From NCBI GenBank assembly GCA_002698985.1, contig PAAY01000082.1, positions 1 to 64,000 on the forward strand: a stretch of DNA of 64,000 nt, read 5' to 3'. The notes beneath the pieces are model-generated. The model saw nothing but the letters and a program-made list of their open reading frames with translations, did no database searches and was not told the origin of the DNA. The DNA is from Saprospirales bacterium. Its GTDB lineage: Bacteria > Bacteroidota > Bacteroidia > Chitinophagales > Saprospiraceae. Made by a program: the position numbers and the translations under genes. Below, one piece after another: positions 3,401 to 50,660 of the stretch. Position 1 is the stretch's first letter, and each line of letters starts with the position of its first letter.

Positions 3401-3433
3401 TCAAAAACCCTCAAAAACCTCCAAAAACCTCCC
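3401..3433. repeat. Decamer tandem array 1
   Basis: Three copies of a 10-nt unit, TCAAAAACCY/CCAAAAACCT, so five-A tracts recur every 10 nt. On the minus strand the unit reads GAGGTTTTTG. A 5-bp inverted repeat (GGTGC at 3392-3396, GCACC at 3435-3439) flanks it. It sits between the 3' end of the TolC-type gene and fmt, both read on the minus strand. Confidence 0.8.
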
Positions 3434-3441
3434 AGCACCAT

Positions 3442-4938
3442 TTACTCATCCAGGGCATCCAGTGATTTCACCAGCGAGACTTCACGGTCGAAGTCGTAGA
3501 GGGTGCTTCTTCTGAGGTCGTAATAAGCCAGCCAGAAGGCACGCAGGGCGCTCATGTATGAACGGCGGGTGCTTTCTTTTTCTTCCACGGCCACGTTGAG
3601 GTCCAGGATGTCGTTTTTGCCAATCATGTAGCGGTTGCGTGTCATCTCTTCTTTGCGGATGGCGATTTCATAAGCCCGCAGGGCCAGCTCTGCTTTGCTG
3701 CGCAGCAAATCGAACTGTTTCACTTTGAGGCGCATTTCCTGCTCGAAATTAACCTCGTCCTGCTCGACATTCTGACGGATCAGCTCTTTGTTGCTGGTTG
3801 CTGTTTCCAGCCTTGCCCGGGCCTTGCCCCAGTCGAAAATGGGGATGGAGAAACCCAACTGGAAGGTTTCGTTGTCGAGGGGGTTCTGATAGGCATCATT
3901 GAGTTTCTCTCCTGTTTGCGACAGCGAGAAGACGGCGAAAAGATCCATTTGAAGGCCGCTGTTGGCTTTTGCCTGGGCAATGGAACGGTCTGCTTCCAGC
4001 ATGCGCCGCTGCCAGACAAGCGGGTTGCTCCTGTTCTTGAGGGCTATCTCGAGCACCCGGTCGATCTCCAATTGAATGTCGGGCATTTCCGTAGGTGGTT
4101 TCATTTTGAAATTGACAGCCCTTTTGATACCGAGGAAGTTGCGGAGTTTTTCATTGCTGGTTTGAAGGTTCAGTACGGCCTCCTGCACGGCCGCATCGGC
4201 CCGCATGGATTGCAGTTCTATGTTCAACAGTTCGGTCTCTGCAATTCTTCCAACCTCGTATCGGCCTTTGGAAATGGCCAGCAAGGTGTCGGCATTGGCT
4301 TTGTCCCTTTGCGCCGCTTCCAGATCGAGCTGAGCGATGTAAACATCAAAGAAAAAAGTGGCGGCATTGTAGGCTACCTGCTCCATCTCCTCGGCGTACT
4401 TCCGCGTGGCTTCCTGGTAACGGACGGGTTCTATTTTTTTGCTCCACTTGAGGTTGTTGAAGCCAAAAATGGGCTGCACCAGGCCGATTGAAATAGGGGT
4501 TGAGTAATAGCTTACGATGTCGTCGGCGTCTTCCCGGAAGATATCCAGCCGCTGAATGCCGGAGCTGGCGAAAATGGTACCCCCAGTTTGTACGATCCGC
4601 TGGGTGAGTGACAGGCCGAGCCGGTTGCGCATCTGGGCCCTTTGGAGGAAGATGTCCGTTCCGTTGGGTTGGGTGATGATGTCAATGGAGCGGTTCAGAT
4701 CGGGCAAATCGCCACCGAAAGTAATGGCCGGTTTGAAATCAGCCAGGGCACTTTGGTAGGACCAGTAGCGGTTTTTCATGCGGGTTTGAGCCAGCAATAC
4801 ATCTGGGGCGTCGCTCTGGGCCAGGGCTATGATTTCTTCCAATTCCAGTTCCAGGGTGTCGGTCTGTGCCCAGGTTGCCCGCTGAACAGCGGGTGAAAGA
4901 AAAAGGAGAAGTAAAAAGAATGTAAGCGGGTGTCTCAT
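3442..4938 (-). CDS. TolC-family outer-membrane efflux channel
   Basis: Predicted outer-membrane channel of a tripartite exporter, 498 residues. The start at 4938 gives a signal peptide (MRHPLTFFLLLLFLSPAVQ, with a cleavage region around ATWAQ); a longer reading frame upstream would overlap the permease gene and add an Arg-rich stretch without a signal. The mature part has two long helical repeats (about residues 30-240 and 265-480) with the heptad-rich pattern of OEP domains, including SIPIFDWGKARARLE, the typical end of a TolC strand entering a helix. It lies downstream of the permease and adaptor genes on the same strand, which together make a MacA-MacB-TolC-like set. Substrate is unknown. 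Confidence 0.9.
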   Translation of the reverse strand: MRHPLTFFLLLLFLSPAVQRATWAQTDTLELELEEIIALAQSDAPDVLLAQTRMKNRYWSYQSALADFKPAITFGGDLPDLNRSIDIITQPNGTDIFLQRAQMRNRLGLSLTQRIVQTGGTIFASSGIQRLDIFREDADDIVSYYSTPISIGLVQPIFGFNNLKWSKKIEPVRYQEATRKYAEEMEQVAYNAATFFFDVYIAQLDLEAAQRDKANADTLLAISKGRYEVGRIAETELLNIELQSMRADAAVQEAVLNLQTSNEKLRNFLGIKRAVNFKMKPPTEMPDIQLEIDRVLEIALKNRSNPLVWQRRMLEADRSIAQAKANSGLQMDLFAVFSLSQTGEKLNDAYQNPLDNETFQLGFSIPIFDWGKARARLETATSNKELIRQNVEQDEVNFEQEMRLKVKQFDLLRSKAELALRAYEIAIRKEEMTRNRYMIGKNDILDLNVAVEEKESTRRSYMSALRAFWLAYYDLRRSTLYDFDREVSLVKSLDALDE

Positions 4939-4973
4939 CTCAGGTTTTGGTTTATGGTTTTCTGATTTATTCT

Positions 4974-6308
4974 TTATTCGCTTCGCAATGCCTTGATGGG
5001 GTCCTGCCGGGCGGCCCGTCTTGCCGGCAGCAGCCCGAATACGAGTCCTACCGAGGCCGCCACCCCAAATGAGAGCAGTACCGACCACAGTGTCACCTCC
5101 GTTGGAATGCCTGCCGAGGCAGCAATGGTTTGGGCGGAAACAATTCCCAGCACCACACCGATCAGCCCGCCAAAAAGGCTGAGGATGATCGATTCAAAGA
5201 GGAATTGAAGTTGTATATCCGTGGCGGTTGCCCCCATGCTTCGTCGCACACCGATTTCCTTGATGCGCTCTAGAACGGAAGCCAGCATGATGTTCATGAT
5301 GCCAATGCCACCTACCAGCAGTGAAATGCCAGCAATGACCGCCAGGACGAAGTTGAAGGTGTCCTGGGTTTTTTGTTGTTGCTGAAGCAAGAGCTCCGGA
5401 ACTTCCACTTCGAAATCAACGGTGTTGCGGTGCAAACGACGGAGCAACCTCGCCGTCACATCGGCCGAGGCCCTGAGGTAGTGGGCATCGTTGACCTTCA
5501 CCACCAGCCGGTCCAGTTGGTGGTAGTTGTCGGGGCTGTCGTTGCTGTTATTGCTCCTTCGGCCAATGTCGGTGAGGATTTTCCTGGCCCGGTCTTCGTA
5601 GCGGAGCAGCGCCGTTTTGGCGGGTATGTAGATGTCGGAATTGGCGTCGGAAATGCCCAGGGCCTGAAGGCTTTCACCGGAAACGGAGCGGCGTTCCAGC
5701 ACACCGATCACCTTGAGCCACTCATTGCGGAACTTGATCCATTGCCCAATGGGGTTTTCTTCGTAAAAAAGCCTCGATTTCACATTGCTTCCGATGATGC
5801 AAACCGGCCGGCCGCCTTCGAGGTGGCTCTGGTGGAAAAGACTTCCCGAGTTCAGTTTCAGGTTGTTGTGTTCGAAATAGGCATTGTTGGTGCCTATGCA
5901 GTTCACCTTGAGGTATTTGCCGTTGTAAACCACATTGCCCTTGTTGTTGATCTCTGGGCTGATGGAACTGACACCCGGCAGTATGGATTCGATGGCACGT
6001 GCGTCGTTCAGCGTCAGTCCCGGTGTCCACAACTGCTTTTGCTTGCCTTCGCTGTTGTTGTTGCTGTTTTGGTTGTTTTCTTCCTGCTCTTTGAGTTGCT
6101 CGGGTTTTACCGGGTTGATGACGATGTTGTTGGTGCCGATGAGTTTCATTTGCTCCAACAGGGATTGTTTGGCACCTGTGCCGATGGCCAGCATTGCGAT
6201 GACCGCAGCCACACCGAAAATGACGCCCAGGGCGGTGAGCATGCCCCTGAGCTTGTTGCTCATGACGCCCTCTGTGGCCAGTTGGAAATTGAAAAGCAGC
6301 CTTTTCAT
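4974..6308 (-). CDS. MacB/FtsX-family ABC transporter permease
   Basis: Inner-membrane permease of 444 residues. One membrane helix near residues 20-45 (MLTALGVIFGVAAVIAMLAI) is followed by a large periplasmic MacB_PCD-type domain (about 48-315, including an Asn/Gln/Glu-rich linker near 75-92) and then three C-terminal helices of the FtsX domain, with the hallmark IKEIGVRRSMGAT cytoplasmic loop and the end LLPARRAARQDPIKALRSE. It lacks a nucleotide-binding domain: no Walker A or ABC signature is present, unlike E. coli MacB. It must therefore use an ATPase encoded elsewhere. It lies 25 nt after the adaptor gene and 35 nt before the TolC-type gene. Confidence 0.92.
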   Translation of the reverse strand: MKRLLFNFQLATEGVMSNKLRGMLTALGVIFGVAAVIAMLAIGTGAKQSLLEQMKLIGTNNIVINPVKPEQLKEQEENNQNSNNNSEGKQKQLWTPGLTLNDARAIESILPGVSSISPEINNKGNVVYNGKYLKVNCIGTNNAYFEHNNLKLNSGSLFHQSHLEGGRPVCIIGSNVKSRLFYEENPIGQWIKFRNEWLKVIGVLERRSVSGESLQALGISDANSDIYIPAKTALLRYEDRARKILTDIGRRSNNSNDSPDNYHQLDRLVVKVNDAHYLRASADVTARLLRRLHRNTVDFEVEVPELLLQQQQKTQDTFNFVLAVIAGISLLVGGIGIMNIMLASVLERIKEIGVRRSMGATATDIQLQFLFESIILSLFGGLIGVVLGIVSAQTIAASAGIPTEVTLWSVLLSFGVAASVGLVFGLLPARRAARQDPIKALRSE

Positions 6309-6333
6309 GGGTTGAATTTTGAAGCGTTTTTGA

Positions 6334-9289: not shown

Positions 9290-11801
9290 GCTTGAAAGTG
9301 CCGGGCATGGCATTTTCAATGATCTCTTTGACTTCCTCCAGGGTCATGGCTTCGGCCTGTTCCTGGGTGATGCGTTTGCCATCGATTTTCGGAATGGCAA
9401 TGCTCTTCTTTTTGTACCGGATGAATGGTCCCCAGCGGCCATTTTCAACGGCGATGTTTTCCTCGTCCCACTTGTGTATGTAGCGGTTAGCCTCTTTCTT
9501 GATTTTGGCCTCGATCAGCGCATAAGCGTCATCGAGTGAAAGGTTGGCCGGGTCGTATTTCTTCGGAATGTTGACATACATGTCGTTCCACTTCAGGAAG
9601 GGGCCAAAGCGACCTTTTCCCTTGGTGATGGGCAAACCTTTGTATGTGCCAATGGGCGCATCGGCAGCCTCTTTTTCTTTGATCAGCACAATGGCATCTT
9701 CCAGCGTAACCTCGTGCGGATCTTGGTTGCGAGGGATGGACACGAACTTGTCACCGTATTTTACGAAGGGCCCAAAACGGCCAATGCCGATGGAAACCTC
9801 CTGGTCTTTGTAAGTGCCAAGCGTTTTCGGCAGGGTGAACAGTTTGAGGGCATCCTCCAGGGTGATGGTTTCGATGGTCTGGGAGGTGTTGAGGTTGGCG
9901 TACCGGGGTTTTTCACCTTCGGCCAATTCCTCTGGGATGCCGATTTGCACCGCCGGCTTTCCGAAGCGGGTCATGCGCACGATGATGGTACGACCGCTCT
10001 CGGGGTCTTTGCCCAGAACCCGCTCACCCGTTGCCCGGGCGCTGGTCTCCAATGTTTTTACGACATCCTGGTGGAATGGGAAGTAGAAGTCAGCCACCAT
10101 TTTGTGCCATTCTACTTTTCCTTCGGCAATTTTGTCAAAATCGGCCTCGATTCCGGCAGTGAAGCCGTAGTCCATGATTTTGGAAAAGTTCTGATCGAGG
10201 AAATCGGTGACCACCATGCCCATGTCCGTAGGGAACAGCCTGTTTTTCACGGCGCCGGTGATTTCCGTCTTGGTTTCCTGCTGGATCTTGTCATTGCGGA
10301 GGGTGATTACCTGATAGGCCCGCTCTTCTCCCTCCCGTGATTCCTTCACAACATAGCCACGGTTGGCCTCCATGATCTTGGAAATGGTCGGTGCATAAGT
10401 TGACGGGCGGCCGATGCCAAGTTCTTCCAGTTTGCTCACCAGGCTTGCCTCGGAATAACGAGCTGGCGGCCGTGTGAACCGCTCCAGGGCGGTCATTTCT
10501 TGCAGGTCGAGCTGTTGGCCAACCTTGAGTGGCGGCAGGATTCCTTTTGCGGTTTCTTCCTCCTCATCGTCTTTTGATTCCAGGTAGACTTTCAGAAATC
10601 CGTCGAATTTCAACACTTCACCTTCCGCCTTCAGCAGGGCGTCCGGCTGGGTGCTGATGCCGATATCCACGATGGTTTTTTCGAGCTGTGCCTCCGCCAT
10701 TTGCGAAGCGATGGTACGCTTCCAGATCAGTTCATAAAGCCTTTGCTGGTCCCGGTCGCTGCTGACCTGCTGCCGTTCGATGTAAGTAGGGCGGATGGCT
10801 TCGTGGGCTTCCTGGGCCAGCGCCTTTTTCGATTTGAAGCGACGGGTTTTGACGTAGTTTTTTCCAAACTGCTTTTCGATTTCCTGGGCCAGGGCGGCGA
10901 CGGCCGTTTCGCTCAGGTTGGTCGAATCCGTACGCATATAAGTAATGTGTCCGGCTTCGTAAAGGCGCTGGGCAACCAGCATGGTACGGCTCACGGAAAA
11001 GCCCAGTTTCCGGCTTGCTTCCTGCTGCAAGGTTGAAGTGGTAAAAGGTGCCGGCGGGTTTCTTTTAGTTGGTTTTACTTCAATGTTGTTGATGGTGTAG
11101 GTAGCCCCGATGCACTTTTCGAGGAAATTCTTGGCACCTTCCGGCTCTCTGAATCTCTGGGGTGATTCAGCACTCAGGGTGGTCATGCGGCCATTGGCAG
11201 CAGTCACATTGAACAATGCCGATATTTTGAAAAATGGGGTGGGGGTGTAGGCGTTGATTTCCCGCTCTCTTTCGACGATGAGCTTAACAGCCACAGATTG
11301 AACGCGACCGGCCGAGAGTTTGCCTTTTACTTTTTTCCAAAGCAGTTCTGAGAGCTCATAACCCACCAGGCGGTCCAGTATCCTTCTGGCCTGTTGGGCA
11401 TCAACCAGAAACAAGTCCAGCAACCTGGGGTTCTGGATGGCCTGCAGAATGGCAGGTTTGGTAATTTCGTTGAAGACGATGCGCTTGGTATTCTTGGCAT
11501 CGAGACCCAGAACCTCGGCGAGGTGCCATGAAATGGCTTCCCCCTCGCGGTCTTCATCTGTTGCAAGCCATACTTCGTCAACCTTTTTGACCCAGTCTTT
11601 GAGTTCTTTGACGACTTTCTTCTTGTCGGCGGGAATCTCGTATTTCGGTTTGAAATCGTGTTCAACATCAACCCCAATGTCGCCTTTCGGCAAGTCACGG
11701 ATGTGTCCGTAGCTGGATTTTACTACGAAGTCCTTTCCGAGGAATTTTTCAATGGTCTTGGCTTTGGCGGGAGACTCTACAATGAGAAGATTCTTGGGCA
11801 T
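9273..11801 (-). CDS. topA: DNA topoisomerase I (type IA)
   Basis: Relaxes negative supercoils through a transient 5'-phosphotyrosine link. It has 842 residues. The N-terminal TOPRIM domain (LLIVESPAKAKTIEKFLG to DEDREGEAISWHLAEVL) is followed by the cap and gate domains with active-site Tyr288 in ITYMRTDSTN. The C-terminal part after about residue 600 has no four-cysteine zinc fingers. Instead it carries repeated Topo_C-type modules recognisable by IGRFGPFVKYGD, GKGRFGPFLKWND and NGRWGPFIRYKK, as is usual in Bacteroidota. The last residues are Lys-rich. A promoter element lies about 90 nt upstream. Confidence 0.97.
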   Translation of the reverse strand: MPKNLLIVESPAKAKTIEKFLGKDFVVKSSYGHIRDLPKGDIGVDVEHDFKPKYEIPADKKKVVKELKDWVKKVDEVWLATDEDREGEAISWHLAEVLGLDAKNTKRIVFNEITKPAILQAIQNPRLLDLFLVDAQQARRILDRLVGYELSELLWKKVKGKLSAGRVQSVAVKLIVEREREINAYTPTPFFKISALFNVTAANGRMTTLSAESPQRFREPEGAKNFLEKCIGATYTINNIEVKPTKRNPPAPFTTSTLQQEASRKLGFSVSRTMLVAQRLYEAGHITYMRTDSTNLSETAVAALAQEIEKQFGKNYVKTRRFKSKKALAQEAHEAIRPTYIERQQVSSDRDQQRLYELIWKRTIASQMAEAQLEKTIVDIGISTQPDALLKAEGEVLKFDGFLKVYLESKDDEEEETAKGILPPLKVGQQLDLQEMTALERFTRPPARYSEASLVSKLEELGIGRPSTYAPTISKIMEANRGYVVKESREGEERAYQVITLRNDKIQQETKTEITGAVKNRLFPTDMGMVVTDFLDQNFSKIMDYGFTAGIEADFDKIAEGKVEWHKMVADFYFPFHQDVVKTLETSARATGERVLGKDPESGRTIIVRMTRFGKPAVQIGIPEELAEGEKPRYANLNTSQTIETITLEDALKLFTLPKTLGTYKDQEVSIGIGRFGPFVKYGDKFVSIPRNQDPHEVTLEDAIVLIKEKEAADAPIGTYKGLPITKGKGRFGPFLKWNDMYVNIPKKYDPANLSLDDAYALIEAKIKKEANRYIHKWDEENIAVENGRWGPFIRYKKKSIAIPKIDGKRITQEQAEAMTLEEVKEIIENAMPGTFKPKKKA

Positions 11802-11892
11802 ATTATGTGGTACTTGATGGTATCAGTGAGCGAGAGAGAGATTGGTTTGAATGATTGAAGCACGGGGTACTCCGCTAATCGAATTCTGGCCG

Positions 11893-11900
11893 CAAAAGTA
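11893..11900 (-). promoter_or_regulatory. -7 element for topA
   Basis: On the minus strand this reads TACTTTTG, matching the Bacteroidota -7 consensus TAnnTTTG. It would give a leader of roughly 85 nt before topA. No well-placed -33 TTG is seen. Confidence 0.5.
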
Positions 11901-11981
11901 TAAATTTTGAGAAACGGCACTCATCCAACGGGAATTTGGGTATAAAATCCCAAAAGGGTACGTTGCTGTTGCGGCCTTGTT

Positions 11982-12503
11982 TCAATTGCCGTTTTCGGCC
12001 TTCTGTTCTTTCGGAACTTTTCTTTTCTCTTCGTAAATGATGACGCCCTTTTTCCTTCTTTCCGCTTTTCTGGCTTCTTCCTGTGCCGCTATGTCTTCGA
12101 GCAATTCTTTGATGCCCAATTCCTTTTTGTTCAGGCTCCGGTGATACACCCGGATCAGGAACATACACATATCGTCAGGGTGGTGGATGCCCATGTTTTG
12201 AAGGTGAACCGAGAGCCGGCTGCCATCGTACAGAGACCAGTTGTGTGTCATCCACCTGCCCAGGCTGAAAAACAGCTTGTGAACGGCCTGTTCTTCATCC
12301 ATGGCTTTGAATTTCGCTTTGGACTCTTTGTCTATCAGCTTGTTGAGCTGAAGAAGGGCGTCATTGACATCCTTTGGGATGTAAACCCCGTAAAGCACCT
12401 CCTGCTGGATGCGCCATTGGTATTTCTCCTCGTAAGGGTCTGTGGTCTGGCAGAACACAAGCAGGGTATAAAACACGAAAAATGTGCTAAGGAAGATTCT
12501 CAT
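11982..12503 (-). CDS. Secreted DUF6794-like protein
   Basis: A 173-residue protein with a signal peptide (MRIFLSTFFVFYTLLVFCQ). The mature N-terminus contains YIPKDVNDALLQLNKLID, the pattern I associate with DUF6794 proteins; the next part, with FSLGRWMTHNWSLYDGSRL, also fits. The last 45 residues are a strongly charged Glu/Lys/Arg tail. Function is unknown. It is convergent with nothing close and starts 148 nt from the divergent dehydrogenase gene. Confidence 0.75.
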   Translation of the reverse strand: MRIFLSTFFVFYTLLVFCQTTDPYEEKYQWRIQQEVLYGVYIPKDVNDALLQLNKLIDKESKAKFKAMDEEQAVHKLFFSLGRWMTHNWSLYDGSRLSVHLQNMGIHHPDDMCMFLIRVYHRSLNKKELGIKELLEDIAAQEEARKAERRKKGVIIYEEKRKVPKEQKAENGN

Positions 12504-16659: not shown

Positions 16660-17877
16660 TCAGGCTTGCTCGTGCTTAAGGCCGGCAAAGTCCGAAAGAT
16701 ACTGGAAATTCTTGCCAAGGCGCCCGCCTTCCGTTACCGTTGCCCGTTCCAGCATCTCGCTGTGGGGCTTCAGCAATTCCGGCAGGATCAGGTCCAGCAG
16801 CACATTGCCAAACTCGGTGCTGGCATCCCTGGCCAGTTCATTGGGCAGGTTGTCGATGGCCATCACATCCACACAATTTTCTTTGAATGGTTCACAGGCC
16901 TCGCCGGTCTGCGGGTCGTACCCATACACCGGATCTGCAATAGTGGATGGCTTGACCGTGCAGGGTATCGATGAATCCGGTGCTATGTCACAAGTTACAT
17001 CGGCGATGACTTCAATTTTGAAATCCGGATGAAGCATGTCCTCATTGCTGAAAAAGGCAGGAGCGGCGGGGTTCCAGAAAATACCGTTGATGAAAACCTC
17101 ACTTACCCGGGCATAAGGGAGGATGGCGCTTGTGAACTTTTCAGGCTGGGCGTAGAACTCCTCTTTTGAGTGCGGAGCACCGTCGATTTTGCGTACATAC
17201 TCCAGGCTGCTCAATTGGGTAAACACAGCGTGGTCAAAGGATTTTTCGAGGTAGTCTTGCGGACTCACTGCTTTTAAACCCATGTCCTCCAGGACCCTTC
17301 GGGCACCATTGGCCACACGGCCCGTACCTGTAAGCAACACCTTTATTGGCGGCAGTTTCAGGTTGTTCTTGTACCAGTTGACGGCGTCTTCGTAATGCGG
17401 AAAAGTGTACATCCTGGGCATGTCGGCCAGCCGGTGTCTTTTGAAGTAGGTCCAGATGGCATTGTGGGCTCCCACCATGCCAGCAAATTTACCGAAGGCA
17501 ATCACCCGTTTGCCGTTTTCATCGGTCAGCACTTCGTAATCGATCAGCCGGATATTCTTACTCAAAATGGCCCTGAGCAAGTCCCGGTTGTAAGCCTGTT
17601 TCTTGATGGTATGCGAAAAGAAAAAATAGGTCTTGTCAGGAATCAGGTCTTTGATCGGAACCTCTTTGACACCGAAAAGGATGTCACAGTTGTTCATGTC
17701 CTCTGCCAATTGGATTCCCTGAACGGTGTAATCTTCGTCGGCAAAACAGCGGGTTGGTGATCGTTGGACGATGACTTCAAACCCGTATTGTTCTTTGGCT
17801 TTCTTGCATTGTTCCGGAATGAGTGGAACCCGGCTGTCAGGCGGAATTTTACCTTCTCTGATGATTCCAATGGTCAT
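16660..17877 (-). CDS. Saccharopine dehydrogenase-like (LYS1/LOR-type) oxidoreductase
   Basis: A 405-residue NAD(P)-dependent enzyme of the alanine dehydrogenase/PNT fold, closest in pattern to NAD-dependent saccharopine dehydrogenase (lysine-forming) and the lysine-ketoglutarate reductase half of AASS. Visible marks are the N-terminal substrate-domain strand with RVPLIPEQ, the catalytic region FGVKEVP (Lys) and FFFSHTIKKQ (His), then RLIDYEVLTDENGKRVIAFGKFAGMVG, and the nucleotide loop LLTGTGRVANGARRVL. Saccharopine dehydrogenases interconvert saccharopine and lysine plus 2-oxoglutarate. Direction and exact substrate cannot be decided here. It probably starts the transcript that also carries polX. 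A decamer array inside nested inverted repeats lies upstream. Confidence 0.8.
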   Translation of the reverse strand: MTIGIIREGKIPPDSRVPLIPEQCKKAKEQYGFEVIVQRSPTRCFADEDYTVQGIQLAEDMNNCDILFGVKEVPIKDLIPDKTYFFFSHTIKKQAYNRDLLRAILSKNIRLIDYEVLTDENGKRVIAFGKFAGMVGAHNAIWTYFKRHRLADMPRMYTFPHYEDAVNWYKNNLKLPPIKVLLTGTGRVANGARRVLEDMGLKAVSPQDYLEKSFDHAVFTQLSSLEYVRKIDGAPHSKEEFYAQPEKFTSAILPYARVSEVFINGIFWNPAAPAFFSNEDMLHPDFKIEVIADVTCDIAPDSSIPCTVKPSTIADPVYGYDPQTGEACEPFKENCVDVMAIDNLPNELARDASTEFGNVLLDLILPELLKPHSEMLERATVTEGGRLGKNFQYLSDFAGLKHEQA

Positions 17878-17932: not shown

Positions 17933-18049
17933 CTGCAAAAGTTTCCATTAGTCGCCCAGAAGGAGTTGGGAGAAAACCCCTCTAAACCTCTCTAAACCTC
18001 TCTAAACCCCTCTAAACCTAATGGATCCAAAGTGAAAGGGCTTTTGCAG
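17933..18049. repeat. Nested inverted repeats enclosing decamer array 2
   Basis: Outer arms CTGCAAAAG (17933-17941) and CTTTTGCAG (18041-18049) and inner arms TCCATTAG (17944-17951) and CTAATGGA (18018-18025) enclose decamer array 2. The element lies about 55 nt upstream of the saccharopine-dehydrogenase-like gene in a 417-nt stretch without a gene (17878-18294). A further 8-bp inverted repeat, CAAAGTGA (18074-18081) with TCACTTTG (18105-18112), follows. Confidence 0.75.
17977..18018. repeat. Decamer tandem array 2
   Basis: Four copies of a 10-nt unit, CCYCTCTAAA, on the plus strand; on the minus strand the unit rotates to GAGGTTTAGA. It lies inside the nested inverted repeats described at 17933-18049. 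Confidence 0.85.
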
Positions 18050-18620: not shown

Positions 18621-18997
18621 GGGGGTGTATTGGAATCGACAGGAATGTGAATCTGTAAGTAAGCATGCCGGAGTATGATTGCTCATCTCCGTTAACAAAC
18701 GGCAATCACACCACTTTAAATGGCAACTATCAGTATGCCATGGCTGCCTAATTACTAGGTAATTAGAAGCCATTATGCCGTACGTTTGACGCCTGCTACA
18801 CAGCGTACCGCGTATCAACCAACCCGCAGGATAGCTGACCGGCCTGCCTCGACCGGTTAGTGAAATTCAGGGGCTAAGGTGCAAGTCAGGTTTTGTCTGT
18901 GAACCTACCTTGTACCCGACAATTCAATCACAGACTAAGCATGTAGAAAGCTTGCAGATGCTTTCTCTGGACGCGGGTTCGACTCCCGCCACCTCCA
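18621..18997 (+). ncRNA. ssrA: Transfer-messenger RNA (tmRNA)
   Basis: Rescues stalled ribosomes and tags the released peptide. The 5' end GGGGGTG pairs with CACCTCC near the 3' end (one G-U), followed by discriminator A; the CCA is not encoded (CTA follows). The 5' block TTGGAATCGACAGG and the 3' T-arm GGACGCGGGTTCGACTCCC are typical. The tag frame ends in YQYAMAA then TAA at 18749-18751, directly followed by the expected hairpin TAATTAC/GTAATTA. Reading from the AAC after TTAACA gives the tag NGNHTTLNGNYQYAMAA (17 residues; 16 if it starts at the next Gly), longer than the common 8-12 residues. The exact resume codon is inferred from similarity to other Bacteroidota tmRNAs. Confidence 0.95.
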
Positions 18998-19059
18998 CTA
19001 CTTTTATTTCCTTTTCTTTTTGTACAAATCTGTTTTCTTTGCCGGCAAATCTTCAGCCC

Positions 19060-19995
19060 ATGGCAAAGGAAACCAAACAAACTACCCGTCATATTTTAAT
19101 GGTGCGCCCGGCACATTTCGGCTTCAATCCCGAAACTGCCGGCAGCAATGCTTTTCAGAGCGAAGACAGCCTGCTTTCTCCCAAAGAAATAAGCCGCAGA
19201 GCCCTTGATGAGTTTGACGCTTTCGTTGCCGCATTGCGCAGCGAAGGGGTTGATGTCATCGTGGTGCAGGACACTGACCAGCCCGTAAAGCCGGATGCCG
19301 TTTTCCCCAACAATTGGGTCACCTTTCACGAAGATGGCACTGTCGTCACCTATCCGATGCTCTCTGAAGTACGCCGTCTGGAGCGGAGAGAGGACGTTTT
19401 GCAATCCCTCGCCGGGCGTTTCGAAATCAAACGCCACATTCACCTGGAGGCTTACGAACGGCAGGGTAAAATCCTTGAAGGCACAGGCAGCATGATCATC
19501 GATCGACCCAACGCGTTGGTGTATGCCTGTGTCAGTCCTCGCACCCATCCTGAACTGCTGGCGGAATTTGCACAAATGATGGATTACAAGCCGGTGCTTT
19601 TCAAGGCAGTGGATGCCGAGGGCATGGACATCTACCACACCAATGTAATGATGGCGCTGGGTGAAACTTTTGTGGTCATCTGCCGCCAAAGCATTTCCTC
19701 GGAAAAGGAATGGGCAGAGATCGCAAGGCATTTTGAAAAAACAGGGAAGGAGGTCATTGAAATCACCCTGCCGCAGATGATGTCCTTTGCCGGCAACATG
19801 CTGCAAATCAGAGGCAAGGATGAGGAGCGCCTGCTCGTGATGTCTTCAGAGGCATACGGTTCACTGGAAAAGAAGCAGTTGGAACAATTGGAGCGGCATA
19901 CCCGCATTTTGCACCAGCCTATACCCACCATCGAAAAGTTTGGCGGAGGCAGCGTAAGGTGCATGATGGCAGAGGTTTTCCTCCCCGAGAAATAA
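19060..19995 (+). CDS. ctlX: CtlX-type amidinotransferase/citrulline-pathway hydrolase
   Basis: A 311-residue enzyme of the guanidino-modifying (arginine deiminase/DDAH) superfamily, with the length and motifs of CtlX. The start at 19060 (MAKETKQTTRHILMVRPAHF) is chosen because upstream in-frame sequence lies in tmRNA. Visible active-site parts are FPNNWVTFHEDGTVVTYPM (acidic and substrate-binding residues), the conserved GTGSMIIDR, the His region DIYHTNVMMALG, and the C-terminal GGGSVRCMMAE with the nucleophilic Cys. CtlX proteins are linked to citrulline or arginine use; the exact substrate is not shown by the sequence. It follows tmRNA by about 60 nt and could be on the same transcript. 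Confidence 0.85.
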   Translation: MAKETKQTTRHILMVRPAHFGFNPETAGSNAFQSEDSLLSPKEISRRALDEFDAFVAALRSEGVDVIVVQDTDQPVKPDAVFPNNWVTFHEDGTVVTYPMLSEVRRLERREDVLQSLAGRFEIKRHIHLEAYERQGKILEGTGSMIIDRPNALVYACVSPRTHPELLAEFAQMMDYKPVLFKAVDAEGMDIYHTNVMMALGETFVVICRQSISSEKEWAEIARHFEKTGKEVIEITLPQMMSFAGNMLQIRGKDEERLLVMSSEAYGSLEKKQLEQLERHTRILHQPIPTIEKFGGGSVRCMMAEVFLPEK

Positions 19996-20040: not shown

Positions 20041-20090
20041 AACCCCTCTCAACTTCTCTTAACCCCTCTTAACCCCTCTTAACCCCTCAG
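20041..20090. repeat. Decamer tandem array 3
   Basis: Five 10-nt units, mostly AACCCCTCTT on the plus strand; on the minus strand the unit rotates to GAGGGGTTAA. It lies between the stops of the convergent ctlX and DUF2027-Smr genes and ends 10 nt from the latter. Confidence 0.85.
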
Positions 20091-20099
20091 AATCAGTTC

Positions 20100-21149
20100 T
20101 CAAAAAATCACCTCCGTAGCCCCCCAACCATATTTAGGGTGGTACTCGTTTTTGAAGGATTTGACCTCCGCCATTTGAAACAGGCGGGTGGCTATTTCAT
20201 CTCTGAGTTTGCCTTTGCCCACGCCGTGGATGATGAAGACCCTTTCAACGCCGAGGCTGATGGCTTCCTCCATGTATTTTTCGAAGGCAGTGAGCTGGAT
20301 CCGAAGGATTTCCGAATTGCTCATTTTGCCGGCACCCGGCCGCAACTTTTCAATGTGCAGGTCAATCGCATTCTGAAAACCGGCCAGCTTCTTTGAATCC
20401 ACCACCTCGACCCATTCATGTAGTTCTTCGTTGTAACTCCAGCCCGGCCGGGCGTGTTGACGGGTGTATTCACTCAGGTCTTCCTCTTGCTTCTTTTGGT
20501 CAAAATCCGGCTTGTCAACCAGTTTGAACAGGTGTGCATTGACGTTCAGCAGGGGTGCCATGCGAACGTGCTTGAAGAAGGATTTGGGTTTGATGCGCAG
20601 ACTGAAAGTTTTGCTTTCCGTGTCACCCTCTGTGGTGATCCACTTTTGGGTGAGTTCCACTTCCGGCGACTGGTTGAGGGCATCAAATGACATGTTGCCG
20701 ATTTTGACTTCTGAAGGGCCTGGCACCTTCCCATCCCATTTTATCGGCCGGTCTTCATTGAAATAGATGCCAAAGCTGGCCACGGCCTCGTAGGAGGTGT
20801 CGTTGATCAGGTGAAGGTCATAGCTGGAGACCTGACCATCGGCATTTTGATTGGGTACAAAGGCCAGCAGGAGCCCCGTCGGCTTGAGGATGGCGTATTG
20901 GGTTTTGGCGGTGTTTTCCTTCGGTAAACCCGGTTGATCCGTTTCCGGTTTCTGGATCACTTTGGCTTTTACAACGTTTGCGGCAACCGAGTCATCCCGT
21001 GCCAGGTCGTCTTCAAATACCGGTATTTCAAAACCATCTTCATCGAGTCGGACTTTTACCATGCCGTTCAGCAGCCGTTCAATGACCACTCCTGTATCGC
21101 CTGTTTTGCTGAGCCTCACCCTCGATCCTACGACGTATAGCATATTCAC
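20100..21149 (-). CDS. DUF2027 protein with C-terminal Smr domain
   Basis: A 349-residue cytoplasmic protein of the type often annotated as a MutS2-related or DUF2027 protein in Bacteroidota, but without a MutS ATPase. The N-terminus (VVGSRVRLSKTGDTGVVIERL) is a short KOW/Tudor-like barrel; residues 85-230 form the DUF2027 beta domain; the C-terminal 85 residues are an Smr domain with IDLHIEKL and IHGVGKGKLRDEI, the metal- and nucleic-acid-binding motifs of Smr endonucleases. Function is unknown, though Smr domains cut or bind branched DNA or mRNA on collided ribosomes. A second in-frame ATG at 21143 could be the true start. Confidence 0.88.
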   Translation of the reverse strand: MNMLYVVGSRVRLSKTGDTGVVIERLLNGMVKVRLDEDGFEIPVFEDDLARDDSVAANVVKAKVIQKPETDQPGLPKENTAKTQYAILKPTGLLLAFVPNQNADGQVSSYDLHLINDTSYEAVASFGIYFNEDRPIKWDGKVPGPSEVKIGNMSFDALNQSPEVELTQKWITTEGDTESKTFSLRIKPKSFFKHVRMAPLLNVNAHLFKLVDKPDFDQKKQEEDLSEYTRQHARPGWSYNEELHEWVEVVDSKKLAGFQNAIDLHIEKLRPGAGKMSNSEILRIQLTAFEKYMEEAISLGVERVFIIHGVGKGKLRDEIATRLFQMAEVKSFKNEYHPKYGWGATEVIF

Positions 21150-21875: not shown

Positions 21876-22258
21876 GCAGAAAAAACATTTCCTCCGGCGC
21901 TAAATGGGAGCCGCTCGTTGGTTATTCCCGGGCTGTTCGCATCGGCAATGTCATAGAAGTTTCCGGAACGGCACCGGTGGAAAACGGAAAAGTGGCCAGC
22001 CCCGGTGATGCTTACGGCCAAACGCTTTGTGTGCTCAGGATCATCGAATCTGCCCTGGCCGAAGCCGGCGCTTCCATGAAGGATGTCATCCGCACCCGGA
22101 TTTATGTTACTGACATTACCCGTTGGGAAGAAGTCGGGCGGGCACACGGAGAGTTTTTCAGGGAGGTGATGCCGGCCACCTCGATGGTTGAGGTCAGCGG
22201 GCTGATCGATCCTGAAATGCTGGTGGAGATAGAGGTCACTGCAATTGTTGAAGAATGA
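21872..22258 (+). CDS. RidA-family protein
   Basis: A 128-residue protein of the YjgF/YER057c/UK114 family, which in its best-known members hydrolyses reactive enamine/imine intermediates. Visible marks are the N-terminal [19 protein letters not shown], the central NxxAxLxxAGA-like [21 protein letters not shown] with the conserved Arg, and the C-terminal [25 protein letters not shown] with the Glu of the active site. It overlaps both neighbours by ATGA (methyltransferase upstream, queE downstream), so the three are translationally coupled. Its link to the other two is not obvious. Confidence 0.93.
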
Positions 22259-22890
22259 AGAATTACAAGGTCAAGGAAGTTTTTTACACCCTTCAGGGTG
22301 AAGGAGCCCAGAGCGGCCGTCCAGCCGTTTTTTGCCGCTTTTCGGGTTGCAACCTCTGGACAGGCCGTGAGGAGGACCGGCACAAGGCCATCTGCCAGTT
22401 TTGCGACACTGACTTCTGGGGGACGGACGGGGAAAACGGCGGTTCTTACCAGGCCCCCGATCTGGCTGCACTCGTTGCCCGCTTGTGGGGAGACACCTCT
22501 GTCGGTCGGCCTTTGGTGGTCTGTACAGGAGGAGAGCCCCTGCTGCAACTCGATGAACTGCTGATCGAAGCCTTCCATGAAGCCGGATTTGAAGTGGCCG
22601 TTGAAACGAACGGTACACAGGAGGTGCCGAAGGGTATCGACTGGCTCTGTGTCAGTCCCAAAGCGGGAGCAGAGTTGAAGGTGAAATCAGGAAATGAACT
22701 CAAATTGGTTTACCCGCAGGAGGCGGCACCACCAGCCATGTTTGAGTCGTTGGATTTCGACCACTTTTTCCTTCAGCCGATGGACGGTCCCGATGTGGCA
22801 CGCAATACGGAACTGGCCGTCAGGTTTTGCCTTGCAAATCCGAAATGGCGCCTCAGCCTGCAAACGCACAAGATCCTCAATATTCCTTGA
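22255..22890 (+). CDS. queE: 7-carboxy-7-deazaguanine synthase
   Basis: Radical SAM enzyme that converts 6-carboxytetrahydropterin to 7-carboxy-7-deazaguanine in queuosine (preQ0) biosynthesis. It has 211 residues. The first lines show [27 protein letters not shown], with the QueE-type cluster motif of spacing Cys-x14-Cys-x2-Cys (GCNLW, then [12 protein letters not shown]). Later motifs are [11 protein letters not shown] and VETNGTQ. QueC, QueD and QueF are not in the window. It overlaps ridA by 4 bp and is the last gene of the operon; decamer array 4 begins just after its stop. Confidence 0.95.
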
Positions 22891-22892: not shown

Positions 22893-22933
22893 GAAGGTTG
22901 TAGTGAGGTTTTTGAGGATTTTGAGGTTTTTTT
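22893..22933. repeat. Decamer tandem array 4
   Basis: About three imperfect units (GTGAGGTTTT, TGAGGATTTT, GAGGTTTTTT) lie between the convergent queE and Omp28-like genes. The array touches the stop codon of the latter. The G-rich strand is in the sense of queE. The T-rich end might also help termination. Confidence 0.6.
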
Positions 22934-28546: not shown

Positions 28547-28603
28547 GGGAGGTTTTTTGGGGTTTTTTAGGTTTTTTGGGTTTTTGAGGTTTTTGGAGTT
28601 TTT
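28547..28603. repeat. Decamer array 5, phased T-tracts
   Basis: T-tracts of 4-6 begin at 28553, 28563, 28572, 28581, 28590 and 28599, separated by G-rich steps; the unit is GAGGTTTTTG-like. The spacing of 9-10 nt is close to one helical turn, which predicts curved DNA. It fills most of the gap between the GH65 gene and rtcB. Confidence 0.75.
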
Positions 28604-45129: not shown

Positions 45130-46506
45130 GTGTTGCTCGGATACAAAAAATCTATACCAGTGGACAAGATTGATTTCGTGAAACGAAAGACGACCCTATT
45201 TCTGAAGAACAACAAGAAATACCTGCTTTATTCGCTTGTACTGATTGTTGTTGTTTCTTCCATTTTCATCTCAGAGAAAAATTCCTTTGTAAACCAGGGC
45301 TCTGTGGTACCCACAGATTTGTTGCGCAAGGCCAAATTGGGTGAATTCCCCATCGTGCAACCCAATATGAAGTACGGTTTCGTGCTGGACACCTTCCAGG
45401 TTTTGGAAGGAGAGGTAAAACCCAACGAAACCATCGGTGAATTGCTGCTGGACAACGGATTTACCGGCGGTGATGTGCACAGCCTGGCTGAAAAGAGCAA
45501 AGAAGTTTACGACCTCGTTCGGAATTTCAGGGTTGGAAAATCATACATGTTTTTGACCCGAAGGGGCGAAGAAAAGCCGTCCTGGTTTGTTTACGAACCG
45601 AATGTGTACGAATATGTGGTGGTTGACCTCGAAAACGGCATGGAAGTACGAAAGGAGGAGAGGCCCGTTGAGGTTAAAGAGGCGGTCTTGCATGGCCAAA
45701 TAAATTCTTCGCTTTGGGTGGCCATAGAGGAGACCGGAGCAAGCATGGAGGTGGCCGCTAAAATGGAAGATGCCCTGGAAACATCCGTTGACTTCTCGCA
45801 CGTGCAGGTTGGCGATGAGTTCAAACTCGTTTACGACGAAAAATACATCGAGGGCAAAAGGGTAGGAGTGGGCAATGTACACGCCGCCTACTACAAACAG
45901 GCTGACAGCGATAAAGAGCACTATGTTTTCTGGTTCGACGGCGGTGGCGAGCATGTCGGTTTTTACGATCAGGAAGGCCGTCCGATGAAAGGCCGCTTTT
46001 TGAAAGCCCCGGTCAAATACACCCGCATTTCTTCACGGTACAATCCCCGCCGGTTTCACCCGGTGCTTAAGCGGGTGCGCCCACACCTCGGAACAGATTA
46101 TGCCGCTCCAACCGGTACGCCCATTTACGCCGTAGGCAATGGAGTGGTGGTGGCCAAGGGCTACACCAAAGGCAACGGCAACTACATCAAAATAAAGCAC
46201 GACAAAGTGTACCAAACCCAGTATTTGCACATGTCCGGTTTTGCGAAGGGAATCAAAAAAGGGTCTTACGTGAGCCAGGGACAGGTGATCGGTTATGTTG
46301 GCAGCACTGGTCTTGCCACCGGCCCGCACGTTTGTTTCCGATTCTGGAAAAACGGCAAGCAGATCAACCATCTGCGGGAATATTTCCCACCTTCAAAGCC
46401 ACTCCCGGATGAGCTCCTGCCGGAGTTCTTCAAAGTACGGGATGTTTACATGGAAAAGCTGAAGGCTGTTGATTCTTCCGTCGCAATGGATGAAACGGCG
46501 CCATAA
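45130..46506 (+). CDS. M23-family peptidoglycan endopeptidase
   Basis: Predicted zinc peptidase that cuts peptidoglycan cross-links, 458 residues from a GTG at 45130. There is no ATG near the start; GTG at 45160 or 45178 would also fit, and all keep the membrane helix YLLYSLVLIVVVSSIFI. Residues 60-290 contain a coiled or beta linker and LysM/OapA-like strands. The C-terminal M23 domain has HLGTDYAAPTGTP (His, Asp zinc ligands), YLHMSGFAKGIKKG and GPHVCFRFW (His ligands). It is an inner-membrane-anchored periplasmic enzyme for cell-wall remodelling. Confidence 0.88.
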   Translation: MLLGYKKSIPVDKIDFVKRKTTLFLKNNKKYLLYSLVLIVVVSSIFISEKNSFVNQGSVVPTDLLRKAKLGEFPIVQPNMKYGFVLDTFQVLEGEVKPNETIGELLLDNGFTGGDVHSLAEKSKEVYDLVRNFRVGKSYMFLTRRGEEKPSWFVYEPNVYEYVVVDLENGMEVRKEERPVEVKEAVLHGQINSSLWVAIEETGASMEVAAKMEDALETSVDFSHVQVGDEFKLVYDEKYIEGKRVGVGNVHAAYYKQADSDKEHYVFWFDGGGEHVGFYDQEGRPMKGRFLKAPVKYTRISSRYNPRRFHPVLKRVRPHLGTDYAAPTGTPIYAVGNGVVVAKGYTKGNGNYIKIKHDKVYQTQYLHMSGFAKGIKKGSYVSQGQVIGYVGSTGLATGPHVCFRFWKNGKQINHLREYFPPSKPLPDELLPEFFKVRDVYMEKLKAVDSSVAMDETAP

Positions 46507-46526
46507 GTTCCGCAACACAGGATAAG

Positions 46527-46563
46527 AAAACGGGTTGGACCAGGCTTGGCTCAACCCGTTTTT
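46527..46563. terminator. Bidirectional terminator between M23 and ubiD genes
   Basis: Stem AAAACGGGTTG/CAACCCGTTTT with T runs in both directions, between two convergent genes; the ubiD-like stop codon touches it. Confidence 0.8.
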
Positions 46564-48386: not shown

Positions 48387-48389
48387 CCG

Positions 48390-50507
48390 TTAGTTTGTGG
48401 TGGCAGTCCATTTTTTTCGAAGCCAGGATGGAGCACTGAATCGCTGTCCGTGCACAGCTTCCAGCTCGGCGCATTTGTCGAGGAATTTATTGATGCCGTA
48501 GCTGGAGATGTATTGGATCACGCCACCTTTGAAATCCGGGAAGCCCCACCCGAAGATGCTGCCGATGTTGGCTTCTTCTACCGAGTTGATCACTTTTTCC
48601 TGAATGCACCAGACTGCTTCGATGATTTGTGCAAACTGGAGGCGTTCGATGATCTGCTGGTAGGGTTGGGCTGCCGGGTCATTCGGGAAATGTTCGTCCA
48701 GGCCATTCCAGATTTTGACTTCCTTGCCGCTCCAGTCATAAAAACCCTTACCGCTTGCTTTTCCTTTTCTCGAAAGCTCCTGGATCATGGTTTTTAGAAC
48801 CGAAACGGCTGGGTGTTCAACATACTTTTTGCCATAGTGTTCTGCGGCCTGTTTTTCGTACCTCCAAACGAGTTCCAGCGAACGTTCATCAGCCCACTGC
48901 AAAGGGCCGATCGGCATGCCGGCCTTTCTTCCGAGGTTTTCTATGACACTTGCAGGGACACCTTCCTGCAACATGGTAATGCCTTCCAAAATGTAGGTAT
49001 TCAGCACCCTGGAGGCATAAAAGCCCCAGCTGTCATTGACGACGATTGGCGTTTTTCCGATTGCTCTCACAAAATCAAAGGCCTTGGCAATGGTTTCATC
49101 AGAGGTTGAGGCACCTTTTACCACTTCAACCAGGCGTTTCTTTTCCGCTGGCTTCAGAAAGTGGAGTCCAACAAATTTTTCCGGATGGGTAACTTCTTTG
49201 CTCAATTTGGTGATGGGAATGCTGAGTGTATTACTGCCAATGAAGGCCAGGTCGTCGAGGTGTTGCTCTGCTTCCCGCGTTACTTTGGTTTTGACGGTCT
49301 GGTTCTCGAAAACTGATTCGATGACGAGGTCGCAATCGCTGAAATCTTCAGAGTTTTCAGTGGTTTCGATTTTCTTCATAAAAGCCGTCAGCTGTTTCTC
49401 GTCAAAATTCTGGTCCTCCATGTTGCGGAGGATTCCGGCAACCCTTTCCCGGCCCTGTTCCGCAATCATTTTCGACACATCCTTCAACACAACGGAGATT
49501 TTGTTGCTGACGCAAACAGCAGCAATGGCAGAGCCCATTGTACCGGCACCGATGATACCAACTTTGCGGGGTCTGAATCTTCCAAAGCCTTTGGGTCTTT
49601 TCAAACCGTTGTGGATGGCATTGAGGTCAAACCACAGCGCCTTGATCATGTTTTTGCATTCAGGACTTGTCAACAATTTGGCATAATACCTCGATTCGAT
49701 GCGGCATGCCGTGTCGAAATCCACCCGGCTACCTTCATACAGGGTGTTGAGGATGGCCTGGGGAGCAGGAAAGTTATTCTTCCAGCGGGCTGAAAGGGCA
49801 GCCGCCGTTTTGGCAATGTTCCTCGCCATCTGCGGGTCTTTGGCCGTTCCGCCGGGAATGGAGCAGCCTTCACGGTCCCAGGGGCGGGAGGCTTCCCGCA
49901 CTTTTAGCAGCCACTTTTTGGCTTTGTAAAGCAACTCGTGCTCGTCGGCAGCCAGGTCATCGATCAATTGGTGTTCCAGTGCCTTTTCCGGGTTCATCCG
50001 CTCTCCCCTGATGAGATAGTCATAGGCCTTTTTGATGCCCAGCAGCCACATCAAACGGATGACTCCGCCGTTGCCCGGCATGATTCCAAAGTGTATTTCC
50101 GGCAGGCCCAGTTGGATCTCCGGCCGGTTGACGACGATGCGGTGGTGGCAGGCCAGTGCCAGCTCAAAGCCCGTACCGATGGCATTGCCGTTGATGGCGG
50201 CTACAACCGGTACGCCGGGCCGCTCCAGATCCCGGAAAAATCCTTTCAGTTTTTGTGTGTAACCAAAAACGGCTTCGGGATTTGCGGCCTTGTAAAGGTA
50301 TTCGATATCCCCACCTGCCAGAAAGGAGCTCTTGGCGGAGGTGATGATGACGCCTCGCAGTTTGCCCTTTTCTTTTTCCTTCTTCAAATGTTCCAAAACA
50401 GGAACGAAGGCTTCCACGATTTCGTGGTTCAGAATGTTGGCGTCCCTGCCTTTCATGTCCAGGGTCAGCGTCGCAATGAGGTCGGTATCTTTGGTATAGG
50501 TGATCAT
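48390..50507 (-). CDS. FadJ-like bifunctional enoyl-CoA hydratase/3-hydroxyacyl-CoA dehydrogenase
   Basis: Two-step beta-oxidation enzyme of 705 residues. Residues 1-190 are the crotonase/enoyl-CoA hydratase part, with GGDIEYLYKAAN, VVAAINGNAIGTGFELALACHH and LPEIHFGIMPGNGGVIRL. The NAD-binding 3-hydroxyacyl-CoA dehydrogenase part starts near 316 with KVGIIGAGTMGSAIAAVCV, followed by IGSNTLSIPITKLS and PEKFVGLHFLKPAE. Substrate: medium/long acyl-CoA. It is followed by the ubiD-like gene on the same strand; the promoter lies beyond two decamer arrays. Confidence 0.93.
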   Translation of the reverse strand: MITYTKDTDLIATLTLDMKGRDANILNHEIVEAFVPVLEHLKKEKEKGKLRGVIITSAKSSFLAGGDIEYLYKAANPEAVFGYTQKLKGFFRDLERPGVPVVAAINGNAIGTGFELALACHHRIVVNRPEIQLGLPEIHFGIMPGNGGVIRLMWLLGIKKAYDYLIRGERMNPEKALEHQLIDDLAADEHELLYKAKKWLLKVREASRPWDREGCSIPGGTAKDPQMARNIAKTAAALSARWKNNFPAPQAILNTLYEGSRVDFDTACRIESRYYAKLLTSPECKNMIKALWFDLNAIHNGLKRPKGFGRFRPRKVGIIGAGTMGSAIAAVCVSNKISVVLKDVSKMIAEQGRERVAGILRNMEDQNFDEKQLTAFMKKIETTENSEDFSDCDLVIESVFENQTVKTKVTREAEQHLDDLAFIGSNTLSIPITKLSKEVTHPEKFVGLHFLKPAEKKRLVEVVKGASTSDETIAKAFDFVRAIGKTPIVVNDSWGFYASRVLNTYILEGITMLQEGVPASVIENLGRKAGMPIGPLQWADERSLELVWRYEKQAAEHYGKKYVEHPAVSVLKTMIQELSRKGKASGKGFYDWSGKEVKIWNGLDEHFPNDPAAQPYQQIIERLQFAQIIEAVWCIQEKVINSVEEANIGSIFGWGFPDFKGGVIQYISSYGINKFLDKCAELEAVHGQRFSAPSWLRKKWTATTN

Positions 50508-50537
50508 TTTTTTTGTGTCTTCTGCAAATTCTGTTGG

Positions 50538-50588
50538 GGATTATGGAGGATTATGAGGATTATGAAGGATTATAGAGGATTATGGAGG
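50538..50588. repeat. Decamer tandem array 6
   Basis: Five units, GGATTATGRA or close, on the plus strand (one is 9 nt long), in the 5' leader of the minus-strand fadJ-like gene. On this strand the unit rotates to GAGGATTATG, so its polarity is opposite to that of array 7 next to it. Confidence 0.85.
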
Positions 50589-50608
50589 CATACTACGATT
50601 TCTTTCAA

Positions 50609-50660
50609 CCTCTCTAAACCACTCTCAACTCCTCTCAACTCCTCTCAACTCCCCTCAACC
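50609..50660. repeat. Decamer tandem array 7
   Basis: Five units, mostly CTCCTCTCAA, on the plus strand; on the minus strand the unit rotates to GAGGAGTTGA. It lies 20 nt from array 6 in the inverse orientation, so the two can pair in the leader RNA. Confidence 0.85.

Follow-up and report, generated by a model that had tools for sequence, protein, structure and literature searches.

C-poor tandem repeats between genes of a Saprospirales bacterium and their orientation at gene edges

In a 64,000-nucleotide stretch of a Saprospirales bacterium (GCA_002698985.1, contig PAAY01000082.1, positions 1 to 64,000; hereafter the window), seven short tandem arrays lie between genes. They belong to a larger repeat population, of which the GAGGNNTNNN family is a slice, and whose common feature is a strand almost without C. 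The arrays have many copies at unrelated sites and turn over between sister species. At gene edges their C-poor strand is directed outward, with a polarity that decays with distance; in this genome the arrays supply part of the stop codons they adjoin, and their orientation is reversed inside reading frames. The explanation that we favor, with a probability of about 45%, is that non-coding repeats spread and that translation filters their orientation at gene edges.

The repeat population and its polarity

Arrays and their periods were called with Tandem Repeats Finder (TRF), and genes with our own hexamer-based caller, whose starts may be wrong. The sample from the organism's own genome (4.83 Mb) comprised the window and 41 further stretches, in all 857,510 bases with 575 called genes. 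Stretches were also taken from eleven other genomes of the genus, nine of which gave the 70 oriented arrays discussed below, with none from G004 and G010; G005 and G013 were included in searches and contributed no stretch. A sister species (G003) was found via two proteins that are 87 and 88% identical to those of the window. Before polarity was counted, we dropped arrays with an absolute difference between G and C of less than 3, arrays that were at least half coding, and arrays for which the stretch lacked a flanking gene on one side. An array is called outward if its C-poor strand, read 5' to 3', leads away from the closest gene edge.

The own-genome sample contained 229 oriented non-coding arrays with units of 7-12 nt. 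In 175 of them, the closer of the two flanking genes was the one 5' of the array on the C-poor strand (p 4e-16). Outward orientation was found for 90/96 arrays within 30 nt of the nearest edge, 41/53 at 31-80 nt and 44/80 beyond. The other genus genomes behaved similarly, with 60/70 outward overall and 46/48, 10/12 and 4/10 in the same distance classes. For more distant relatives, the outward to inward counts were 8/3 in other genera of the family, 2/0 in the order or class and 2/1 in the phylum (6/1, 2/0 and 2/0 within 30 nt). The sequence-only reading had described the G-rich strand as the sense strand of an adjoining gene, which fits; reading away from the nearest gene edge is the sharper rule genome-wide.

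Stops and starts differ in the reach of the effect. Pooling own-genome and genus arrays, the outward to inward counts on the stop side were 27/2 for overlapping arrays, 60/4 at 0-15 nt, 7/1 at 16-30 nt and 27/13 at 31-80 nt, and then even. On the start side they were 3/0 for overlapping arrays, then 29/0, 10/1, 11/0, 13/1 and 11/2 up to 120 nt, followed by 9/11. A second difference appears when repeats are masked, in values that rest on a smaller, earlier sample: in the 20 nt next to starts, the G-over-C skew of the outward strand was still 0.25-0.30, in other genera too, and on the stop side it fell both in the own genome (from 0.16 to 0.03) and elsewhere in the genus (from 0.12 to 0.06). Since G-poverty before starts persists without arrays, starts may require no cause of their own, and the effect at stops depends largely on the arrays.

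The rule does not depend on classical quadruplex tracts. At least four GGG tracts were present in 46/229 own-genome arrays and 5/70 arrays of relatives, and arrays with fewer than four GG tracts were also polar (66/95 and 31/39, respectively), so that we rejected quadruplexes as the cause. Near genes, polarity was as strong for young arrays (self-identity at least 0.95, 15/16) as for decayed ones (35/37).

The units fall into about a dozen families, judged by simple patterns or by eye. The larger ones among the 229 arrays are GGATTATG(GA) with 51, GTTKAGAGRR with 34, GTKTAGRGTTTAG with 31, AGGGATG with 21, GAGGAAYT with 20, GGTTTTTGA with 15 and GAGTAGG with 14; GTTGAATT (11), CGTGACT (7), GGTTGTA (5), CAGTKGG (3), CAGAGTTGAA (3) and others (14) make up the rest. 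The C content of the C-poor strand is 3.2%, and 159/229 arrays are free of C (4.5% and 37/70 in relatives). Arrays cover 8.2% of the gap bases, a density biased by our picking the stretches by hand, largely from contigs with known arrays. A higher-order tandem of about 110-130 nt was seen at L032:3520-3900, where it joins a GGATTATG array, GTTTAGCAGGA, GCTACGA repeats and AACTCTG repeats.

Against this variety, a single family with the unit GAGGNNTNNN, as proposed from the sequence alone, proved too narrow: two successive such units occur in 57/229 arrays here and 2/70 in the other genus genomes. Likewise, GAGG and one T, thought to be constant, hold in the families that the sequence-only reading had picked up and not beyond them; any GAGG is present in 134/229 own-genome arrays. 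Such repeats exceed chance: chains of at least three exact GAGG at 9-11 nt spacing occur 4 times in the window, compared with 0.09 on average and 3 at most among 200 dinucleotide shuffles. One of the four, at 45660-45688, lies inside a called gene (three GAGG, 9-10 nt apart) and was judged coincidental. Occurrence elsewhere in the genome was confirmed as well, with 204 matches to GAGGNNTNNNGAGGNNTNNNGAGG in the 4.83 Mb and arrays in the sister species. Reversed GAGGNNTNNNGAGGNNTNNNGAGG gave 75 matches, but is not a clean control because it also matches the arrays.

Three copies of GGATTAT with 1-3 nt spacers matched 506 times in the own genome, 193 times in the sister species and not at all in the 12 other genus genomes; in 60 genomes including the own one, there was one further match, in a genome of the same order. 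The unit GTTKAGAGRN gave 177 matches in the own genome, 85 in the sister and none in the other 58 genomes. An exact 29-mer of the GGATTAT pattern was found in a named genome collection, from which the own genome is possibly excluded, only in three stretches of the Saprospiraceae metagenome assembly JALWSS01. Other genus genomes mostly use different units, for example TTGAGGGC, GAAGGATT and ATAGTGG. Arrays thin out in more distant relatives, with a density per 100 kb of 7.4 in 22 genomes from other genera of the family, 3.3 in nine genomes from the order or class and 3.0 in nine genomes from the phylum.

A period of one helical turn had suggested DNA bending or phased protein binding. Units of 10 nt are indeed frequent in the own genome (77/229). 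However, 7-nt units are as common here (83/229), which argues against helical phasing, and in relatives they are commoner (33 versus 7 of 70) and have the same polarity. We therefore regard a helical role as hardly credible.

A proposed translational filter and competing explanations of the polarity

We infer a translational filter as the cause of the polarity, and copying and slippage as the processes by which the arrays spread and change size. A large, fast-changing population of short tandem repeats would spread between gaps, with slippage lengthening or shortening the arrays. The C-free strand can carry all start codons (ATG, GTG, TTG) and all stop codons. Its nearly G-free complement would offer no start, no Shine-Dalgarno-like GAGG, and TAA as the sole possible stop. 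With this start and stop grammar of the two strands, arrays beside genes should be best tolerated in one orientation. Past a stop, an outward C-free strand would close the reading frame; before a start, a G-free strand reading into the gene would give no false start and little structure. The reach of about 120 nt on the start side, compared with the tight stop side, is as expected of a leader constraint.

Several observations point in this direction. In the own genome, TAA was used at 0/22 stops overlapped by an array and at 6/47 stops followed by an array within 30 nt, versus 107/339 controls, and the C-free run before stops with an array within 30 nt had a mean length of 8.8 versus 4.8 nt (p 6e-7). 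Some protein ends resemble the translated repeat, such as ..RDEGTGMRDEKG (L178, gene 11622-12434) and ..GSGMRDEG in the sister species (L217). Near stops, arrays were outward or inward in 92/10 cases if the C-poor strand holds a stop codon and in 3/6 cases if it holds none. Units at stops closed more frames than letter-shuffled units (2.39 versus 1.93 +- 0.14), and units at starts closed fewer (1.39 versus 2.01 +- 0.23). Arrays of 7-, 8- or 10-nt units inside reading frames had a C-rich sense strand in 12 cases, a G-rich one in 1 and a neutral one in 2.

Other observations weigh against translation as the cause. In relatives, TAA use was 0/4 and 5/21 versus 123/277 (p 0.07 for the second), a weaker effect, and the C-free run was 7.6 versus 6.5 nt (p 0.17). 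Frame closing was also weaker when distinct units were counted, with z of 2.0 and 1.9 for stops and of -0.5 and -1.1 for starts. Arrays situated entirely behind the stop closed only slightly more frames than shuffled units did (2.23 versus 1.97, with 24/500 shuffles as high). In the smaller, earlier sample, distinct units overall barely exceeded shuffles (39/51 versus 34.4 +- 2.9 and 44/59 versus 38.5 +- 3.2). Among 69 orthologous gene pairs shared with the sister species, from a comparison for which we chose three stretches rich in stop-side arrays, protein ends were conserved in 52, and 12/13 arrays at these conserved stops were outward; the supply of stop codons is therefore not the whole cause. 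Transfer RNAs (tRNAs) gave 38 matches, of which 30 had loci. In a survey of 37 tRNA contexts (at least one counted twice), the single tRNA-tRNA gap with TRF arrays was L195, whose two arrays lie at distances of 11 and 28 nt from the tRNAs and are both outward, which codons cannot explain. By eye, outward C-poor stretches were also seen behind the terminators of two more tRNAs (L203, L213) and an inward one at another (L211). Finally, by our own reading, the unit GGGAATC has no start or stop codon on either strand, and in Xanthomonas it is reported with the same polarity by Rehm et al. (2015, PMC4692102).

The start and stop grammar thus accounts for much of the polarity, not all of it. Two further explanations were rejected. 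For backup stop codons as a selected function the frame-closing signal is weak, and such a function is impossible for GGGAATC. An artifact of stops defining gene ends contributes, but as the pure cause it was set aside, since 12/13 arrays at conserved stops stay outward. As a side observation from the tRNA loci, three consecutive tRNA-Cys genes lie at L038:934-1183, with a tRNA-Arg gene close by.

The tRNA-flanked gap and the conserved stops would suit a direction-selective brake on transcription, in which a polymerase leaving the gene meets a G-rich non-template strand, with pausing or R-loops, and an entering one meets a G-free strand. A brake would also fit a rule that is symmetric about the gene and independent of its direction, and that has been reported in unrelated phyla (PMC4692102). 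Polarity on the start side is already expected from G-poor leaders, however, and stop-side polarity is mostly limited to about 30 nt, so we consider a brake rather unlikely.

Polarity could also stem from the birth of the repeats, if broken ends at gene edges were extended 3' with C-free repeats and then joined, leaving pairs in which a G-rich array precedes a C-rich one. Such a process would account for this order and for the abutment to genes without selection, and the equal polarity of young and decayed arrays agrees with it. On the other hand, polarity is gone beyond 80 nt, pairs whose two arms each lie over 60 nt away from genes show the G-then-C order in just 11 cases versus 6 reversed, and the start and stop sides differ in reach. 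Moreover, Ku had no match in 14/14 genus genomes, ten of which have a completeness of 90% or more, and Ku-based end joining was rejected on this ground. Polarity from birth is thus improbable in our view.

It would be still more surprising if the C-rich strands were Rho-loading (rut) sites that stop antisense transcription into genes. Few G and evenly spaced pyrimidines characterize this strand, which close to genes is in most cases the one transcribed on gene entry. Yet in the own genome, outward to inward counts within 20 nt of stops are alike in convergent (33/3) and co-directional (34/3) gaps. Cyanobacteria are not known to have Rho, which we count against rut sites. The heptamers of Nostoc, a cyanobacterium, are reported with the same polarity (PMC4692102).

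Window arrays, array pairs and turnover

All seven arrays proposed for the window were recovered by TRF and by direct reading of the sequence, and none lies inside a called gene. They are listed below together with one weaker stretch.

3334..3390, plus strand: weak 8-nt C-poor stretch TGAGGAAC.. / GAGGAATTGAAGAATCGAG, interrupted by the palindrome CCCCGAAAGCTTTCGGGG; read directly with limits drawn by eye, not in TRF
3402..3432, minus strand: array, unit GAGGTTTTTG, 3.1 copies (TRF); G-rich strand exits the stop of gene 3442-4938(-), 9 nt off
17974..18019, minus strand: array, unit GAGAGGTTTA, 4.6 copies (TRF); 96 nt upstream of gene 16660-17877(-), breaks the outward rule
20041..20088, minus strand: array, unit GAGGGGTTAA, 4.8 copies (TRF); exits the stop of gene 20100-21119(-), 11 nt
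22904..22931, plus strand: array, unit TGAGGTTTT, 3.1 copies (TRF); exits the stop of gene 22255-22890(+), 13 nt
28549..28603, plus strand: array, 9/18-nt unit GAGGTTTTTTGGGTTTTT (TRF); exits the stop of gene 26245-28545(+), 3 nt
50538..50588, plus strand: array, unit GGATTATGGA, 5.2 copies (TRF); points away from the start of gene 48390-50507(-), 30 nt
50607..50660, minus strand: facing array, G-rich strand unit GAGTTGAGAG (TRF, three overlapping rows); forms a G-then-C pair with the 50538 array

Two arrays depart from the proposed unit of about 10 nt: the one at 28549 is a 9/18-nt repeat and no clean 10-mer, and the one at 22904 was called with 9 nt. The outward rule is kept by four of the seven (3402, 20041, 28549 and 50538, at 9, 11, 3 and 30 nt). 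The 22904 array also touches the stop of gene 22932-23972(-) at 0 nt and therefore counts as inward by the nearest edge, and the arrays at 17974 and 50622 (the latter within 50607..50660) are closer to the edge they point towards, at 96 and 114 nt. For the gene called at 50893, the ATG at 50806 is the most likely start, its first codons being conserved in the sister species; with this start, the 50622 array is still nearer to the left-hand gene.

Among the neighboring genes, 3442-4938(-) matches an outer membrane efflux protein family and 20100-21119(-) has an Smr domain. The gap of the 17974 array also holds a gene for transfer-messenger RNA (tmRNA, 18621-18998) with the tag peptide GNYQYAMAA. 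The Pfam family DDAH_eukar (dimethylarginine hydrolase, 'eukaryotic') matches 19099-19995 with an E-value of 3.6e-99. The palindrome CCCCGAAAGCTTTCGGGG appears as if inserted inside repeat arrays at window positions 3348-3365, L031:17490-17580 and L046:10780-10820.

Facing neighbors such as the 50538 pair raise the alternative that the arrays are hairpin arms, selected as 3'-end structures (terminators or exonuclease barriers) with a G-rich arm after the stop, a palindromic apex and a C-rich arm. The G-rich array precedes the C-rich one in 48 facing pairs versus 6 in the own genome, and in 10 versus 0 in the other genus genomes. In own-genome gaps, GCTAGC occurs 74 times versus 14.1 expected, and the sequence to its left is G-rich and that to its right C-rich in 52/71 cases, with the reverse in 0. 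A strong fold was predicted for L045:12855-12985, between convergent genes (-57 kcal/mol, z -6.6), and a moderate one for the window pair at 50530-50670 (z -1.75 on the plus and -3.69 on the minus strand). In the other genus genomes, partners match, with a mean duplex energy of -36.7 versus -18.2 for permuted partners (10 pairs, permuted across species).

The own genome does not bear out such matching. For its 48 pairs, the duplex with the own partner averaged -22.96 versus -23.32 for permuted partners, and 1147/2000 permutations were as low; we thus rejected matched hairpin arms there. GCTAGC was not enriched in stretches of other genus genomes (4 versus 9.2 expected; sister 0 versus 0.5). 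Arrays that are alone in their gap are equally polar (61/72 outward, and 37/45 in the other genus genomes), and four of the five unpaired window arrays folded no better than shuffles (z 0.76 to 2.07), the exception being 3395-3440 (z -3.06). We consider hairpin arms unlikely, if less so than a transcription brake. By eye, a GCTAGC with G-then-C order was seen in the sister stretch L217. An RNA role in leaders and 3' ends, suggested from the sequence, is possible.

The arrays that translation is proposed to filter change quickly. Those at 50538 and 50622 are missing from the orthologous sister gap. The 28549 array is not at its place in the sister, where the other end of the gap has a GGAGTAG array, and at the 22904 site the sister shows a different array, of CAGTAGG units, next to the right-hand gene's stop. 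The other three window arrays lie in the first 22 kb, for which there is no sister sequence for comparison. Conversely, the sister carries arrays of its own at sites that are empty in the window. In the 69 orthologous pairs, 14 own-genome genes and 13 sister genes have an outward array at their stop, and in 8 pairs both members do, where 2.6 would be expected (Fisher p 0.0003); one further shared stop-side site fell outside the distance rule. By eye, the units in the 8 shared slots were mostly changed relatives of one another, the same in one slot and unrelated in another.

Among the matches listed, array-bearing parts of gaps, about 40-280 nt long, recur many times at other sites of the sister genome as partial copies with identities of about 67-100%, so that spread is most likely by copying. 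Spread driven by transposases of the RAYT type was considered and is not favored: Y1_Tnp matches numbered 1 in the own genome, 2 in the sister and 0-9 in the 12 others, and these counts, from a family-level search that does not tell RAYTs apart, do not track array density.

Known repeats and the meaning of the rule

Palindromes of the REP/BIME type, which are moved by RAYT transposases, are also dispersed, often just behind stops and in inverse pairs; they are single hairpins, in contrast to the tandem arrays described here. The short tandemly repeated repetitive (STRR) sequences of heterocystous cyanobacteria form dispersed heptamer arrays in gaps, as here, with different units, and are not known to follow a polarity rule.

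The sequence-only reading named no described family that matches, but a close likeness is found in the heptamers GGGAATC and GGGGA(C/T)T of Xanthomonas and Nostoc (Rehm et al. 2015, PMC4692102). According to that paper, they are intergenic, G-rich and dispersed, vary in copy number, form inverted pairs, and lie closer to the 5' neighboring gene whatever its direction. In the 50 bp that follow a stop they mostly occupy the coding strand, and in the 50 bp that precede a start mostly the non-coding strand, a placement for which quadruplexes are discussed as a reason. This corresponds to the outward gene-edge polarity of the arrays described above. The repeats differ in that ours have many units, mostly of 7-10 nt, that do not follow GGGNATC or GGGGAYT (three copies of GGGAATC were found in 0/80 phylum genomes), and in that most of our arrays have fewer than four GGG tracts. 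Positions are also less conserved here (8 shared out of 14 and 13 among the 69 pairs) than the 83% given for two Xanthomonas species in that source, the species distances not being matched.

A second comparison concerns TAACTGA direct repeats of Beggiatoaceae, Cyanobacteria and some Bacteroidetes (MacGregor 2015, PMC4679880). They are likewise intergenic heptamers near gene edges, but have one fixed, C-containing unit and, in the Beggiatoaceae genome studied, lie mostly just upstream of starts. TAACTGA is not among the array units listed here. Among the literature matches listed, largely from outside subscription journals, there was no account of such arrays in Saprospiraceae.

Compared with the accessible part of PMC4692102, what is new here is that many units obey one rule, that G-tracts are not needed, that the rule has a distance limit, and that stop codons are supplied and the orientation in frame is reversed. 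A rule seen with many units, mostly without classical quadruplex tracts, and fading within about 80-120 nt of genes can be separated from the sequence of the repeat, which makes its cause testable as translational filter, transcription brake or mode of insertion. As a C-free array can supply the stop codon, such repeats can also shift apparent gene ends. A broader proposal, doubtful in our view though less so than any of the alternatives weighed above, is that polarity at gene borders is independent of the unit across unrelated phyla, that the slot behind a stop is kept while its unit changes between sister species, and that strand-asymmetric borders are functionally maintained. If this is true, cells would keep such borders as insulators of transcription or translation, beyond a mere tolerance of stray repeats.

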